Assembly: GCA_022564115.1 (NCBI GenBank)
Contig: JADFMB010000003.1
Span: 1 to 55,299, forward strand
Origin: Pseudomonadota bacterium
Lineage (GTDB): Bacteria > Pseudomonadota > Alphaproteobacteria > Rhodospirillales > Casp-alpha2
DNA length: 55,299 nucleotides
Direction: 5' to 3'
Part shown: in pieces, positions 681 through 21,802 of the stretch
Numbering within the stretch: position 1 is the first letter of the stretch
How the letters are laid out: each line of letters opens with the position of its first letter
The notes under the pieces: generated by a model
The model's input: only the letters and a program-made list of their open reading frames with translations
Told to the model about the DNA's origin: nothing
The model's database searches: none
Position numbers and translations under genes: made by a program

Positions 681-3600
681 TTAGCGCCGGAGAGGTATCG
701 GCCCGATAATAGGAATGCCGTAGCGGCGGGCTGCACCCAGCCGTGACGCGGTTCGGTAGCCGACGTGAACAAGCATCAAACGCGCCGCCATATCGGTCGG
801 CGATGGTTGATCCTTCGTCCGCGATACGAAATACACCGGCAGCCCGATTGAAAATCGTACCCGAGGAGTGACGGCGACCGTGAGTCCGCCTTCGAACTGG
901 TAGTAATCGTCGGAATCCAGGAGATCGTGTTCCCGGTTGTCCTGGTTGTGGACCACGGCCTCGACCTTTTTCAGCCGCGTCTCGAACAGGCTATGCTGGG
1001 CTTGGCCTTCGGCGCCCGCCCCATACGCATACCCGCCCCAGGCGATGTAGGCGCGGGCCAGGTCTTCGTCCGTCCGCCAGCCCTTCTCGTCGATCAGCGC
1101 CTGCAAACCGGCGCCATAGGCCCCCGGCTTGGAGCCGAAGACCCGGTACCCGGCGCGCAATTGAGCTTCGTCCGGGTCGAGCCCGCCGGCGGTCAGCCGC
1201 CGGACCTCGGCGGCGACCCTTTCGGCCAGGGGGTTGTCTTCGGGCGGCTCGTCGAGCGCCGCGACGGCGCGGGCGGCGGAATCGAACAGGTCGATGAGCC
1301 CGGGGAAGGCGTCGCGGAAAAACCCCGACACCCGCAGCATGACGTCGACCCGGGGCCGGCCGAGGACCGACACCGGCATGACCTCGAACCCGGTCACCCG
1401 CCGCGACGCCGTGTCCCATTGCGGTTGCACCCCCATCAGCGCCAATCCCTGCGCGATGTCGTCGCCGCCGGTGCGCATGTTGGACGTGCCCCAGCAGCTT
1501 ATCGCCATCACCCGGGGCCAGGCGCCGTGGTCCTGTTTGTGGCGCTCGGCCAGCAGCCCCGCCGATTGCCAGCCCAGTTTCCAGGCCGCCGGCGTCGGCA
1601 CGGTGCGGGTATCGATGGAATAAAAATTCCGCCCCGTCGGCAGCACGTCGGGGCGGCCCCGGGTCGGGGCGCCGGACGGCCCGGGCTCGACGAACGAGCC
1701 CGAGAGGCCGGTCAGGAAGCCCTCGATCTCCGAGGCACCGGATTCCTCGACCGCCGGGCGCAGGGAGGTTTCGATATAGTCCAAGACCTTGCGCGTCGCC
1801 GTCCAGGCGGGATCGGATTCTTGGTCGCCGGAAACCAGCGCCGAGGACAATGCCTCCAACCGTTCCACCGTGTCGCCGGCACTGCGCCACGGGGCGTCTT
1901 CGGCGAGGATTTCCTTCAGCGCCTTGGGCCGGGGGCCGGTCCATTTTTCGCCCATCTGGCAATCCAGGGGATCGAAATCGAGGTCCAGGTCCGAACACAG
2001 CGCGCGCAGCAGCGATTGGCCTTCGCCCTCGTCTTTGTCCCCGGGGCCGACGCGGGGGATGCGGACCAGGGCGACCAGCAGGTCGGTCAGCAACCGGCCT
2101 TTTGGCGTGACGCCGAAGACGTGCAGGCCGTCCCGGATCTGCATTTCCTTCAGCTCGCACAGGTAATTGTCGAGCTTGGTGATCGCCTGGGTCTCGGCCT
2201 CGCCGCGGCGGAAGCCGCAGTCCTCATCGAGGCCGGTTTGCTGGCACAACTCCATGATGTCGTGCTTGAGGACCGTGAGGCGGCGCGGGTCGAGGTCCTG
2301 GGCTTCGTAATATTCATCGACCAGTTGTTCGAGATCGCGCAGCGGCCCGTAGCTTTCGGCGCGCGTCAACGGCGGCGTCAAATGATCGACGATCACGGCG
2401 CTCATCCGCCGCTTGGCCTGGGTTCCTTCGCCGGGGTCGTTGACGATGAACGGATAGATGTTGGGCAGCGGCCCCAGGGCGGCCTCGGGAAAGCATTCGG
2501 ACGACAGCGCCATCGCCTTGCCCGGCAGCCATTCGAGGTTTCCGTGCTTGCCCATGTGAACCACGGCGTCGGCGCCGAAGCCGCGCCTGAGCCAGGCGTG
2601 AAAGACGAGATAGTTGTGCGGCGGCACCAGGTCCGGGTCGTGGTAGCTGGCCTTCGGATCGATGTTGAACCCGCGCGCCGGTTGCAGGCAGACGGCGACG
2701 TTGCCGAGACGGAACGCGGGGACGGCGAAACTTCCGCCATCGGCCCCGCCGGGGATAAAGAACGGGTCTTCTTCCGCCCCGCCCCAGCGGCCGTCGACGG
2801 CCTTTCGCACCGATTCCGGCAGCGCCGCCAGGAACAGCCGGTAATCGGCCAACGATAATGTTTCGGTAACGTTACGATTGGCCAGGGCCTTGAAGTCGTT
2901 GGTCGGCCCGGCCATCAGGCGGTCGATCAGGGCGGCGCCGTCATCGGGGATACCGGCGATGGCGTAACCTTTTTCCCTGAGCGCGCCCAGCACGTTGACG
3001 GTGGCGGCGGGGGTGTCGAGGCCGACGCCGTTGCCGATCCGCCCGTCGCGGTTGGGATAATTGGCCAGCACCAGGGCGATGCGGCGCTCGCCGGCCGGTT
3101 TCAACCTCAAGGCCGCCCAGTTGGCGGCCAGTTCGGAAACGAAACCGACGCGGTCGGCGACCGGTTCGTATTCGACGATATCGGTTTCGGTCAGCGGATC
3201 GCGGCGCTTCAGGCCCTTGAACGACACGGCGCGGCTGATGATCCGGCCGTCGACTTCCGGCAGCGCCACGTTCATGGCGATGTCGCGGGGGCCGAGGCCG
3301 CGGGTGCCGTGCCGCCAGTCGTGCTCGTTGCCGCCGGAAAAGACGATTTGCAGGATCACCGGGCCCGCTTGGTTCTTGTCGCCGATGACGTCGAACGGCG
3401 TCGGCGTGCGCTTGATGCCGGGCACCGAGACGGCGAAACCGGTGGCGTTGAGGATGACGTCGGGCACAGCACCACTCAACAGTTCCTCCAGGGTCGCCGC
3501 CGCCACCGGGTCCTTGAGGCTGGCGACGAAAACCGGCAGCGGGTTCAGTCCCTTTTCCGTCAAGCCTTCGATCAGGGCATCGATGGCCTTCAGGTTCCCG

Positions 3601-14552: not shown

Positions 14553-15185
14553 ATGGAAGACCTTTTTACCCAACCCACCCCCCTCGAGGCGCAGGCGATC
14601 TATGGGCTGGCGTGGCTGAGCTTCGGGATCGTTCACTCCGTCCTCGCCGGGGCCAGCGCGAAACGACGGCTGGATTCGTTGTTCGGGGTCTATTACCGGC
14701 TCGCCTATAACCTGTGGGCGGGGCTCCATATCGCCGCCGTGTGGGCGCTCGGCGGTGCGTTGATCGGCGATCAGCCCTACCCCCTTGAGCCCGGCGTCGC
14801 CGGCGCCATGACCGCGGTCAGGGTGCTGGGGGTGGTGGTTCTGGTGCTGGCGCTCCGCGAATATGACCTCGGCCGGTTTTCGGGCGTGGCGCAAATCCGC
14901 GCCCAAAAGGCGGGAAACACCCTATCCGAGGACGAGCCGCTGATCACCAGTGGCCTGCACCTGTTCGTCCGTCATCCGCTTTATTTGGGCGCTTATTTGA
15001 TTCTATGGGGCGGCGCCACGGGCGATTTCGGGCTGGCGACGGCGGTTTGGGGATCGGTGTACCTCGCCGTCGGCGCCGCTTTCGAGGACCGCAAACTGCT
15101 GGCCCTTTATGGCGACGAATTCCGCGACTACAAAGACCGGATTCCCGCCGTCATCCCGTGGCGGGGACGGGTCAGGGGCCACTAA
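14553..15185 (+). CDS. NnrU/isoprenylcysteine methyltransferase-like membrane protein
   Basis: Hydrophobic; LITSGLHLFVRHPLYLGAYLILWG...FEDRKLLALYGDEFRDYKDRIPAVIPW typical of this membrane methyltransferase superfamily. Confidence 0.75.
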   Translation: MEDLFTQPTPLEAQAIYGLAWLSFGIVHSVLAGASAKRRLDSLFGVYYRLAYNLWAGLHIAAVWALGGALIGDQPYPLEPGVAGAMTAVRVLGVVVLVLALREYDLGRFSGVAQIRAQKAGNTLSEDEPLITSGLHLFVRHPLYLGAYLILWGGATGDFGLATAVWGSVYLAVGAAFEDRKLLALYGDEFRDYKDRIPAVIPWRGRVRGH

Positions 15186-17179
15186 CCCTCGTTCCCCGAC
15201 AACGTGGCCAGGAAATTGCGCCAAAATCCCGGGCCGTCTTCTTCCGGGGCCGCCGGGGGGGCCGGCGCGGGAGCCAGGCCCGGCAGCGCCCTTGGCGGCG
15301 TTCCGGCATGGGCGGCTTTCATGAAATCCCGCCACAATCGGGCCGGCGGCCCGCCGCCGGTGACGTTGCGCATCGCCTTGCCGTCGTCGTTGCCCATCCA
15401 CACCCCGGTGACCAAATCCGCCGTATAGCCGACGAACCAGGCATCGCGGAAGTTCTGGCTGGTGCCGGTCTTGCCGGCCTGGGGGCGGCCGATTTGGGCG
15501 GCCCGCCCGGTGCCGTGGCTGACGACGCCGGACAGCATGGCGTTCATCGCCGCGACGTGGGTTTCCGACACCACCCGCCCGGGGCCGGAGCCGCGGCGCC
15601 GGTAGAGGATGGTCCCGGCCCGGTCGCGGATTTCCTCGATCCCGTAGGCCCACACCCCAGCGCCGCCGTTGGCGAACGGCCCGTAGGCCTGGGTCAGTTC
15701 CAACAACGTCACCTCCTGGGCACCGAGGGCGAGGCTGGGGGTGGCCTTGAAATCGCCGGACAGCCCCAGGCGCCGGGCGACGCCGATGACCCGGGCGCGG
15801 CCGGCCTTTTCGCCGACCTTGACCGCCACCGTATTGATCGATCGGGCCATGGCCTCCTTCAGGCTCACCGGGCCGACATGGCGTTTGTCGAAGTTTCGAG
15901 GGCGCCATTCGCCGATCCGCACCGGTTCGTCGACCAGCACCGTTTCGGGTGTAAGGCCGGCTTCGAGCCCGGCCAGATAGACGAAGGGCTTGAACGCCGA
16001 TCCCGGCTGCCGTTTGGCCTGTGTGGCGCGGTTGAACTGGCTTTTGACGTAATTCCCGCCGCCGACCATGGCCCGGACGGCGCCCGACGGCGTGATCGCC
16101 ACCAGGGCCGCTTCGGAAATCCCGGCTTTCGGGCCTTGTTTGCTCAGCGCCTTGCCGACGAAGGCTTCGGCGAGCCCCTGCAAGTGGGGATCGAGCGTCG
16201 TCCTGACGACGATATCCCGGTCGCCGGGATTGACGTAGCCCGAGACCTGCTCCAGCACCCAGTCGGAAAAGTAGCGGCCCAGGCGGGAGCGGGAGGCGGC
16301 GGTTGCCCAAGGCCCGCCGCTCGCGGTCCCTTGGCCCGCCTTCGCGGCCTCGGCCGGCGAAAGATAACCGGCGGCGACCATGTTTTTCAGCACCTGGGCC
16401 GTCCGCACCCTGGCGCGGGCCGGATGGGCCAGGGGATTGTAGCGGCTGGGCGCCTTCAGCAGCCCGGCCAGCATCGCCGCCTGATAGGTCGACAGCCGCG
16501 CCGCCGGGAGGCCGAAATACTTGCCCGCCGCCGCATCGACGCCATAGGTGCCGGCGCCCAGGTAGACCCGGTTCAGGTAGATGGTCAGGATCTGGTCCTT
16601 GGTGAACTTGCGCTCCAGCCACAGGGCCAGCAAAAGCTCCTGAATTTTGCGTTTTACCGTCCGTTCCGGGGTCAGGAACAGGTTCTTCGCCACCTGCTGG
16701 GTGATGGTCGACCCCCCCTGAACGATGCGCCGGGCCTGCAGGTTGGCCTTCATGGCGCGGGCCAGGCCGATGACGTCGAGGCCGAAGTGGCTGTAGAAGC
16801 GCCGGTCCTCGGTCGCCAGCACGGCCTGGGTCAGGGCCTTGGGCAGTTCGCCGAGCCCGGCCGGCCGGCCGTAGACGTCGCCGATGGTGGTAAGCTGGGA
16901 GCCGTCGGCGGCCAGCACCGTCACCGTCGCCCGCCGGGTGGCGTTGAAGGCCTCCTCAACGTCCGGCAGTTCGGTCGCGTACCAGGCGGCGAGCACCGAA
17001 AACGCGATCACCGCCCAGACGGCGCCGACGGTGCCCCATTTCAGGGTTTTGCCGACCATCCACCTGACGGCCCGCCACGGGCCGCCTTGGCGCTTCGGAG
17101 CCGTGTTGGCGGCGGCCAAAGTGGCGGCCTTTTTGGGTTCCTTGGCGTTGTTTTTACGGACTTTTCCCATGCCGGGCAT
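15182..17179 (-). CDS. penicillin-binding protein 1A family (glycosyltransferase 51 + transpeptidase)
   Basis: ATEDRRFYSHFGLD, QGGSTITQQVAKNLFL, KRKIQELLLALWLER, QPGSAFKPFVYLAGLE, SINTVAV, KTGTSQNFRDAWFVGYT. Confidence 0.93.
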   Translation of the reverse strand: MPGMGKVRKNNAKEPKKAATLAAANTAPKRQGGPWRAVRWMVGKTLKWGTVGAVWAVIAFSVLAAWYATELPDVEEAFNATRRATVTVLAADGSQLTTIGDVYGRPAGLGELPKALTQAVLATEDRRFYSHFGLDVIGLARAMKANLQARRIVQGGSTITQQVAKNLFLTPERTVKRKIQELLLALWLERKFTKDQILTIYLNRVYLGAGTYGVDAAAGKYFGLPAARLSTYQAAMLAGLLKAPSRYNPLAHPARARVRTAQVLKNMVAAGYLSPAEAAKAGQGTASGGPWATAASRSRLGRYFSDWVLEQVSGYVNPGDRDIVVRTTLDPHLQGLAEAFVGKALSKQGPKAGISEAALVAITPSGAVRAMVGGGNYVKSQFNRATQAKRQPGSAFKPFVYLAGLEAGLTPETVLVDEPVRIGEWRPRNFDKRHVGPVSLKEAMARSINTVAVKVGEKAGRARVIGVARRLGLSGDFKATPSLALGAQEVTLLELTQAYGPFANGGAGVWAYGIEEIRDRAGTILYRRRGSGPGRVVSETHVAAMNAMLSGVVSHGTGRAAQIGRPQAGKTGTSQNFRDAWFVGYTADLVTGVWMGNDDGKAMRNVTGGGPPARLWRDFMKAAHAGTPPRALPGLAPAPAPPAAPEEDGPGFWRNFLATLSGNEG

Positions 17180-17215
17180 GATCGCCCACGCCGGTTAGCA
17201 ACGGGTTAACGGGAG

Positions 17216-17394
17216 GAGGGCAAAACTATCAATCGTTATCTGTTGGTTAACGGGGCGTGTAAGGTATTGGAAAATATGATTTTAGCAAAAACACTGCATC
17301 ATTGTCCTTTGAGTTGGATATCATTTTGTAAATCTGTAGCTCTTTGTTTTTGTTCGCTATTAACCCTTTCATCATAATTGATGGTTTTGCCCTG
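17216..17394. repeat. 179-bp MITE-like repeat, copy 1 (direct repeat of 19020..19198)
   Basis: gAGGGCAAAACTATCAATCG...CATAATTGATGGTTTTGCCCTG; differs from copy 2 at 3 internal positions (all T here/C there) plus the outermost base. Confidence 0.93.
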
Positions 17395-17481
17395 CCCACC
17401 CTGGAATTTTTTTTCCAGCGTTCTTGTAAATTTTATTGATGACCTTAAAGCGTGGTTAATTTGAAGCCGGTTCGGGAACCT

Positions 17482-18207
17482 TCAACCTTTCCCGGAAGAG
17501 CTTTCTTCTTGTAACGCTTTAAGCGCCTTTTCTTCCCGCTTCAAATCTCGTTCGGGGCTTCCTAGGGCATAGCCAGCCCAAAAGACACAAACAGTCAACC
17601 CGATTAAAACCCAATTTCCCGCAGTAGATTGGAGTAAAGGAACGTTGTCTTTTGCGAGTATCACCGCCTCCGCGCCAATCCAGAAACCTAAAATCCCGAT
17701 CCATTCGATGGCGCGCATCGAGATTTTGTGCTTGATGTTATCGACGGAAAACCACCGTACATAATCGCCACTGCAAATTTCCTTGTTGGACTGGATGTAA
17801 TTCTCAAGTACGGCTTCCCGGGAGAGGATGCCGAGTTTGATTTTTTTACCGCCAACCTTGCCGGTCCAGTCCTTATAAAGAAAATCCTCTTCGATTTTTT
17901 GGAGCAGACGTTCGCTTAGCTTGAGGAGTTGGGCATTGCGGACATCGAGGCACAAGAAGAACGTCGACAACACACCACCGATGCACAGGAGGATAAAGGC
18001 GTAATCCTGATAGATTGACCCATTACTCCGGGTCATCAGGGAAAAGGCGGTAACAAGGAGCCCAACCGCTATCAGGAAAAAGTGGAACATGCGGGTACGC
18101 TGTTCCGCGTGGAACTTGAAATGCTCCCACGCAAAACGCATTTGCTCGCTGAATAAAGTGTCTGGTTTGGGTTTAGCCACTAATGGGTTAGGGTCGAGGT
18201 TAGCCAC
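17482..18207 (-). CDS. hypothetical multi-pass (about 4 TM) membrane protein
   Basis: MRFAWEHFKFHAEQRTRMFHFFLIAVGLLVTAFSLM, YAFILLCIGGVLSTFFLCLDVRN, WIGILGFWIGAEAVILA, WVLIGLTVCVFWAGYALG hydrophobic segments; overlaps the deoC stop by 8 bp. Confidence 0.75.
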   Translation of the reverse strand: MANLDPNPLVAKPKPDTLFSEQMRFAWEHFKFHAEQRTRMFHFFLIAVGLLVTAFSLMTRSNGSIYQDYAFILLCIGGVLSTFFLCLDVRNAQLLKLSERLLQKIEEDFLYKDWTGKVGGKKIKLGILSREAVLENYIQSNKEICSGDYVRWFSVDNIKHKISMRAIEWIGILGFWIGAEAVILAKDNVPLLQSTAGNWVLIGLTVCVFWAGYALGSPERDLKREEKALKALQEESSSGKG

Positions 18208-18943
18208 TTGAGTCGGCTTCCGACTCGCGTCTAAGTTCTTCCATTATCTCGACCGAGGACGAACAACCGAGCCGAGTAGCGCCAGCGTTCAGCATCATCC
18301 GGGAATCCGCGAGCGTTTTTATGCCGCCCGCCGCCTTGACTCCTACCTGCTCGCCGACCGTCTCGCGCATGAGGCGGACCATCTCGGCATCCGCCCCCCC
18401 CGGTCCGAACCCCGTGCTGGTCTTGACGAAATCCGCACCGGCATTCACAGCCAGCCGGCAACCGGAAACGATTTCATCATTGTTCAGATATGCCGTTTCC
18501 AGAATGACTTTGACGATGGCTTGACGTGAATGGGCCGCATCGACGACGGCGGAAATATCGTCCTCGACGGCGGAGTCATTCCCGTCCTTCAAATCGCCTA
18601 GGGAAATAACCATATCGATCTCGGAAGCACCGTTGGCAATGGCTTGTGCCGCTTCGAAAGCCTTGCCTTCACTCGTCGTGTTTCCATGAGGAAAGCCGAC
18701 CACGGTACATACTGGGACCGAATTGGGACCGAGGCTCGATAACAATTCAGCCGCCGCCGCAACCCAGCGTGGCGCTATGCATGCCGCCCCAAAGCCGTTT
18801 TCCGAAGCTTCCTTACAGAGTTGTTCGATTTCGGATTTTTCACACGTGGGCTTCAAGTTCGTATGGTCGAACCCAAGGGCAAAGGCCTCAAGGTCGGTTC
18901 GTTGCGGAGCGGGTGTTTCAGTCTGAGAACCTAAAATACTCAT
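18200..18943 (-). CDS. deoC: deoxyribose-phosphate aldolase (DeoC family)
   Basis: LGFDHTNLKP, CTVVGFPHGNTTSEGKAFEA, EIDMVISLGDLKDG, FVKTSTGFGPGGA, VGVKAAGGIKTLAD; catalytic Asp and both Lys positions present. Start re-called at MSILGSQ (18943). Confidence 0.92.
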   Translation of the reverse strand: MSILGSQTETPAPQRTDLEAFALGFDHTNLKPTCEKSEIEQLCKEASENGFGAACIAPRWVAAAAELLSSLGPNSVPVCTVVGFPHGNTTSEGKAFEAAQAIANGASEIDMVISLGDLKDGNDSAVEDDISAVVDAAHSRQAIVKVILETAYLNNDEIVSGCRLAVNAGADFVKTSTGFGPGGADAEMVRLMRETVGEQVGVKAAGGIKTLADSRMMLNAGATRLGCSSSVEIMEELRRESEADSSG

Positions 18944-19019
18944 GAGATCACCCGAATTTCTTAAATGGCACCTACTGTAACCACGAACATACACCTTGTC
19001 CGCGAAAGGCACCACAACC

Positions 19020-19198
19020 CAGGGCAAAACCATCAATCGTTATCTGTTGGTTAACGGGGCGTGTAAGGTATTGGAAAATATGATTTTAGCAAAAACACTG
19101 CATCATTGCCCTTTGAGTTGGATATCATTTTGTAAATCTGTAGCTCTTTGTTTTTGTTCGCTATTAACCCTTCCATCATAATTGATGGTTTTGCCCTG
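19020..19198. repeat. 179-bp MITE-like repeat, copy 2
   Basis: Perfect 18-bp terminal inverted repeats CAGGGCAAAACCATCAAT...ATTGATGGTTTTGCCCTG; same orientation as copy 1. Confidence 0.93.
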
Positions 19199-19228
19199 TA
19201 ACGGGAGGAGGCCGCGGGAGGGAGGGGG

Positions 19229-21802
<2,574 letters not shown>

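Follow-up and report, generated by a model that had tools for sequence, protein, structure and literature searches.

The block at positions 17216-19198 of the window, the 55,299-nt stretch of Rhodospirillales DNA analyzed here (contig JADFMB010000003.1), is very likely a non-autonomous composite transposon whose boundaries are two ISAs1-derived MITEs of 179 bp in direct orientation. The two MITE copies surround a horizontally acquired, translationally coupled gene pair, deoC (upstream) and a gene for a membrane protein of the 8xMP family (downstream), and a target-site duplication was found at their outer ends only (Table 1). No transposase is encoded inside the block, supporting the proposal of the first-pass annotation that mobility would be provided in trans. 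An ISAs1-type transposase would recognize the outer end of each MITE and carry the whole MITE-8xMP-deoC-MITE unit into the gap between gyrB and PBP1A, with duplication of 9-10 bp of the target.

Table 1. Coordinates of the composite block, its passengers, and the flanking host genes in the window.
Feature	Position	Strand	Remark
PBP1A-type penicillin-binding protein, flanking host gene outside insertion	15182..17179	-	synteny in L011, L013, L019
Left target-site duplication TAACGGGAG	17207..17215	.	present once in G008 (sister genome)
Left MITE, 179 bp, starting with G in place of C	17216..17394	+	
4TM membrane protein, 241 aa, GTG start, Pfam PF24838 (8xMP)	17482..18207	-	
deoC, deoxyribose-phosphate aldolase, 247 aa, ATG at 18943	18200..18943	-	8-nt overlap with membrane gene
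Right MITE, 179 bp, with perfect terminal inverted repeats of 18 bp	19020..19198	+	
Right target-site duplication TAACGGGAG	19199..19207	.	
gyrB, flanking host gene outside insertion	19229..21784	-	syntenic in genus

The direct repeats (17217-17394 and 19021-19198) matched over 178 bp with 98% identity, which ruled out chance repeats. When aligned in register over 179 bp, the copies differed at four positions: the outermost base (G in the left copy vs C in the right) and positions 12, 90, and 154 (T in the left copy, C in the right). This alignment confirmed the three internal differences of the first-pass annotation, and its descriptions of the perfect 18-bp inverted ends in the right copy (CAGGGCAAAACCATCAAT) and of the duplicated TAACGGGAGGAGG at the outer edges (17207-17219 and 19199-19211) were also correct. 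In the left copy, two bases of the left end are changed. Both copies are thus MITEs in form: short (178-179 bp), non-coding, and with terminal inverted repeats. Going by the MITE termini, the target was probably duplicated over 9 bp (TAACGGGAG), and the extra GAGG of the 13-bp match would be the start of the left MITE, where CAGG is normal, agreeing with the target by chance; alternatively, 10 bp may have been duplicated and the terminal C lost, or 13 bp duplicated and the end truncated. The inner MITE ends have no duplication (CCCACCCTGG vs CACCACAACC). The cassette is more AT-rich than its surroundings, with GC contents of 0.36-0.38 (MITEs), 0.49 (membrane gene), and 0.565 (deoC) against 0.63 (gyrB) and 0.69 (PBP1A). 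Together with the overlap of the two genes (deoC stop codon at 18200-18202; GTG of the membrane gene at 18205-18207), these values bore out the earlier description of a lower-GC overlapping pair between the repeats. A promoter scan of 17100-19300 gave five sigma-70-like sites (1.6 expected); two of them are located at the right-hand ends of both MITE copies on the minus strand, and the site of the right copy points toward the passenger genes.

In the syntenic region of G008, a genome of the same genus (...GGTTAACGGGGGGGAAGGCCGCGGGG...), gyrB and PBP1A are joined via a single target copy, the uninterrupted junction being GGTTAACGGGGGGGAAGGCCGCGGG; the gap was likewise uninterrupted in G001, G006, and G002. 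None of the nine same-genus genomes contained a match to the cassette; the junction could be read in seven of them (all but G003 and G009). In the other three genomes (G004, G005, and G007; loci L015, L016, and L017), a pentapeptide-repeat-like gene, recognized by eye, was present in the gap without the cassette, indicating that the gap tolerates insertions. Empty sites in sister genomes had been named as a check by the first-pass annotation, and those of G008, G001, G006, and G002 supported its view of one composite insertion between gyrB and PBP1A. Neither of the patterns that it regarded as contrary was seen: no relative carried the genes here without the repeats, and solo MITEs bearing their own duplications exist (see below).

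The empty site, the single outer duplication, and the absence of a duplication at the inner ends together demonstrate a single insertion of the MITE-8xMP-deoC-MITE block. The same outer duplication, with no inner ones, is also predicted if a solo MITE was first inserted between gyrB and PBP1A and a MITE-deoC-8xMP circle was then integrated by homologous recombination. However, two events are needed in this case, and a solo MITE was found neither at any of the four sister junctions read nor in the window's own genome, so that this course appears quite improbable. Independent landing of two MITEs on either side of an old resident deoC-8xMP pair, for which nothing speaks beyond the presence of two copies, is extremely improbable and was rejected, because relatives lack the genes at the site, the genus lacks deoC, and one duplication spans the block with none at either inner end. 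Points against the composite transposon itself are the altered outermost base of the left MITE and the rarity of the MITE family, with no second copy of the cassette; current mobility is unsupported.

A pattern search for paired inverted ends in 298 genomes of the order detected such ends in G050, at a spacing of 179 bp, and in G119, at 178 bp, and both elements aligned end to end with the MITE copies of the window. They have their own target duplications of 9-10 bp (CACGCAGAC in G050 and TATCTGACAT in G119), as dispersed copies of a MITE. A sequence model of the family matched 3 of 320 genomes of the order: two copies in the window's genome, three in G050 (one partial), and one in G119; the paired arrangement was restricted to the window's genome. 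Shorter or decayed derivatives with CAGGGC-type ends were also observed in G050 (L061, about 1400-1510; L062, about 3050-3125).

The ends were related to an insertion sequence through G024, a genome of the window's family, in which a repeated element (L067 41-1243) is present at several contig ends; its termini, CAGGGCAAAATCATAAAT and CAGGGCGGAATCATAAAT, are separated by about 1.2 kb. This element and the MITE have the termini CAGGGCAAAA(T/C)CAT(A/C)AAT in common, and the transposase gene inside it, interrupted by a stop, belongs to the ISAs1 family (NCBIfam NF033564, E 1.5e-93). Several copies of the element have an identical flank, suggesting a position within a larger repeat. Since the duplication length of ISAs1 is 8-10 bp, that of the MITE fits, and the shared termini together with this length point to ISAs1 as the putative transposase family; the MITE differs from ISAs1-family insertion sequences in the lack of a transposase. 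The IS4/IS231-like affinity suggested by the first-pass annotation was accordingly replaced by ISAs1, because the element with the matching ends has an ISAs1 transposase, which argues against such an origin. On the other hand, no ISAs1 transposase was found by a PF13808 search of the window's genome (assembly 85% complete) or of the genus, a point against the composite transposon. This absence is weak evidence, since PF13808 also missed the G024 transposase, whose readable 308-aa frame matched PF01609 only.

Tn3-derived, MITE-bounded composites, the genes of which are moved by a transposase in trans, have been described as TIME-COMPs (PMC13367494) and IMU (PMC4133298), with direct-repeat versions of 1-5 kb among those published. 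The window block is similar in its two MITE copies, the lack of a transposase, the intervening genes as a unit, and the single outer duplication. However, TIME-COMPs and IMU belong to the Tn3 family with 5-bp repeats, and the published survey concerned antibiotic resistance genes, whereas the window block has ISAs1-type ends, a 9-10-bp duplication, and a DeoC-8xMP passenger; neither Tn3 ends nor 5-bp duplications, as in a Tn3-derived TIME, were found. Composite-like MITE pairs are also known from Acinetobacter, as MITE-flanked class 1 integrons and MITE-297 regions (PMC6382973). These are alike in having MITE pairs around passenger DNA, but differ in MITE families and cargo. In IS231-derived mobile insertion cassettes (MICs), passenger genes lie between IS ends that lack a transposase, and the duplications measure 10-12 bp; the ends of the window block are instead complete MITEs, and ISAs1-like rather than IS231. 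No report of an ISAs1-type MITE composite was found in the literature searched, the scope of which left out most subscription journals.

Among the passengers, DeoC matched the deoC equivalog TIGR00126 over its full length (254.8 bits vs a cut-off of 117.3; E 5.1e-76), and the lysines of the KTSTGF and GVKAAGG motifs were present in an alignment with solved DERAs, so that the protein is predicted to be a deoxyribose-phosphate aldolase. It is the single deoC of the window's genome; no other deoC was found in the genus, the gene was nearly absent from 61 relatives, and deoB was detected in none of 10 genus genomes. The membrane protein scored above the curated cut-off of PF24838 (43.2 bits vs 30; profile positions 2-103 of 136; E 4.5e-11) and is a member of 8xMP. 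Its monomer model (mean pLDDT 74) contains long helices at residues 15-60, 64-110, 148-185, and 195-216, consistent with four membrane helices; the octameric assembly is taken from the family name only. Sequence and fold searches of the PDB gave no relatives of 8xMP but non-significant helical-bundle noise, no relatives were present in viral contigs and phage records, and neither passenger matched the PADLOC models.

At high score, the 8xMP subfamily of the window was found in 2 of 320 genomes of the order: the window's genome and G037, from another family. In G037, it is again paired with deoC (identities of 64% for deoC and 48% for 8xMP) in the same order and on the same strand, with 15 nt between the genes. 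Since no flanking repeats were found around this pair, the association of deoC with 8xMP is not tied to the MITEs. By eye, a small RelE-like/HTH pair and a DUF4365-like gene lie beside it (L004 729-3461).

More distant members of 8xMP adjoin other enzyme genes. A scan of the genome contigs with the single membrane-protein sequence gave no match, and a search with a two-row alignment yielded four betaproteobacterial loci, all with a HAD hydrolase gene directly upstream (profile scan applied to two of the four). These loci, from Betaproteobacteria and Paraburkholderia (L107 5247-7320, L108 5217-7116, L109 5260-7044, and L110 5161-6996), encode 8xMP proteins with a long C-terminal extension that by eye looks like an OmpA-like domain. 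In G227, from the window's family, the gene beside 8xMP is HAD-like by eye and matches no model. Among 20 class-level neighborhoods, a small sample with no background control, a ThsB_TIR gene was immediately upstream of 8xMP in four, in which the two genes were tightly coupled (L111 4360-5324, L112 4305-5092, L114 4187-4923, and L125 4482-5392); these loci may represent a TIR-signal plus membrane-effector module without ThsA. One further neighborhood each contained a weak TIR_2 protein (L113), AbiJ_NTD4/PDC-S32 (L118), and a weak nucleoside deoxyribosyltransferase match (L127), and most of the remaining loci had no tight partner, or a partner outside the scan. On Pantoea plasmids, the neighbors of 8xMP are a PNP-NACHT protein and genes with matches to PDC-M60, a PADLOC candidate; the order there is integrase, 8xMP, and then PNP-NACHT or PDC-M60-like genes, as candidate defense loci (L131 6016-9540 and L132 5968-10947). 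The relationship between the window's 8xMP and the TIR-linked members is no more than remote.

We favor DeoC-8xMP as a metabolite-linked membrane module, possibly anti-phage. The first-pass annotation had left the choice between a salvage passenger and a nucleotide-linked membrane effector, and the ThsB/TIR, PNP, and HAD neighbors of 8xMP, together with a genus lacking deoB and otherwise lacking deoC, tilt it toward the effector. DeoC would process a metabolite of the (deoxy)ribose-phosphate type, and this metabolite would either control the four-helix 8xMP or be under its control, in a layout like that of the relatives whose 8xMP is coupled to ThsB/TIR, PNP, or HAD enzymes, i.e., a metabolite-gated membrane module. 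This mechanism is tentative, falling short of an even chance.

Comparably tentative is a specifically anti-phage, abortive two-gene system, in which 8xMP damages the membrane and DeoC makes, senses, or removes its ligand. The coupling of 8xMP relatives to ThsB_TIR, AbiJ_NTD4/PDC-S32, PNP-NACHT, and PDC-M60-like genes is in its favor, as is the conservation of the pair in two distant genomes, where the genes either overlap or lie close together. On the other hand, no defense genes were recognized beside the window copy, DeoC pairs number only two, the similarity to TIR-linked 8xMP is remote, and no literature, experimental reports included, on 8xMP, the DeoC-8xMP pair, or a DeoC defense system was found in the library searched. 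The nearest known likeness is Thoeris (ThsB TIR plus effector), because relatives of 8xMP are tightly paired with ThsB_TIR genes; however, neither a TIR gene nor ThsA is present in the cassette, and DeoC occupies the position of the enzyme. A little less probable again, although possible, is that DeoC-8xMP represents an undescribed two-gene system in which the aldolase controls an oligomeric four-helix effector, as one of a wider set of 8xMP systems whose enzyme partner is interchangeable (ThsB/TIR, PNP, HAD, or DeoC), and is moved as a cassette by ISAs1-derived MITEs.

Ordinary salvage of deoxynucleosides or deoxyribose-5-phosphate, with the membrane protein as an uptake helper, is unlikely. 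In spite of the full-length TIGR00126 match and the motif lysines, which suit this role, deo operon neighbors are lacking, and relatives of 8xMP adjoin TIR, PNP-NACHT, and HAD genes. 8xMP is not known to be a transporter family. Salvage is further weakened by the lack of deoB and of any other deoC in the genus: an imported DeoC without a phosphopentomutase partner fits ordinary deoxynucleoside salvage poorly, as far as these incomplete assemblies show.

MITE-bounded composites are known mainly from surveys of antibiotic resistance and with Tn3-type ends; an ISAs1-type MITE pair that moves non-resistance genes, together with an empty site in sister genomes, suggests that the mechanism is more general. 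Its cargo includes a member of 8xMP, a little-studied membrane family that recurs beside TIR, PNP-NACHT, and HAD genes, and an enzyme such as DeoC would be unexpected in bacterial conflict systems, should it really feed or quench an 8xMP effector.
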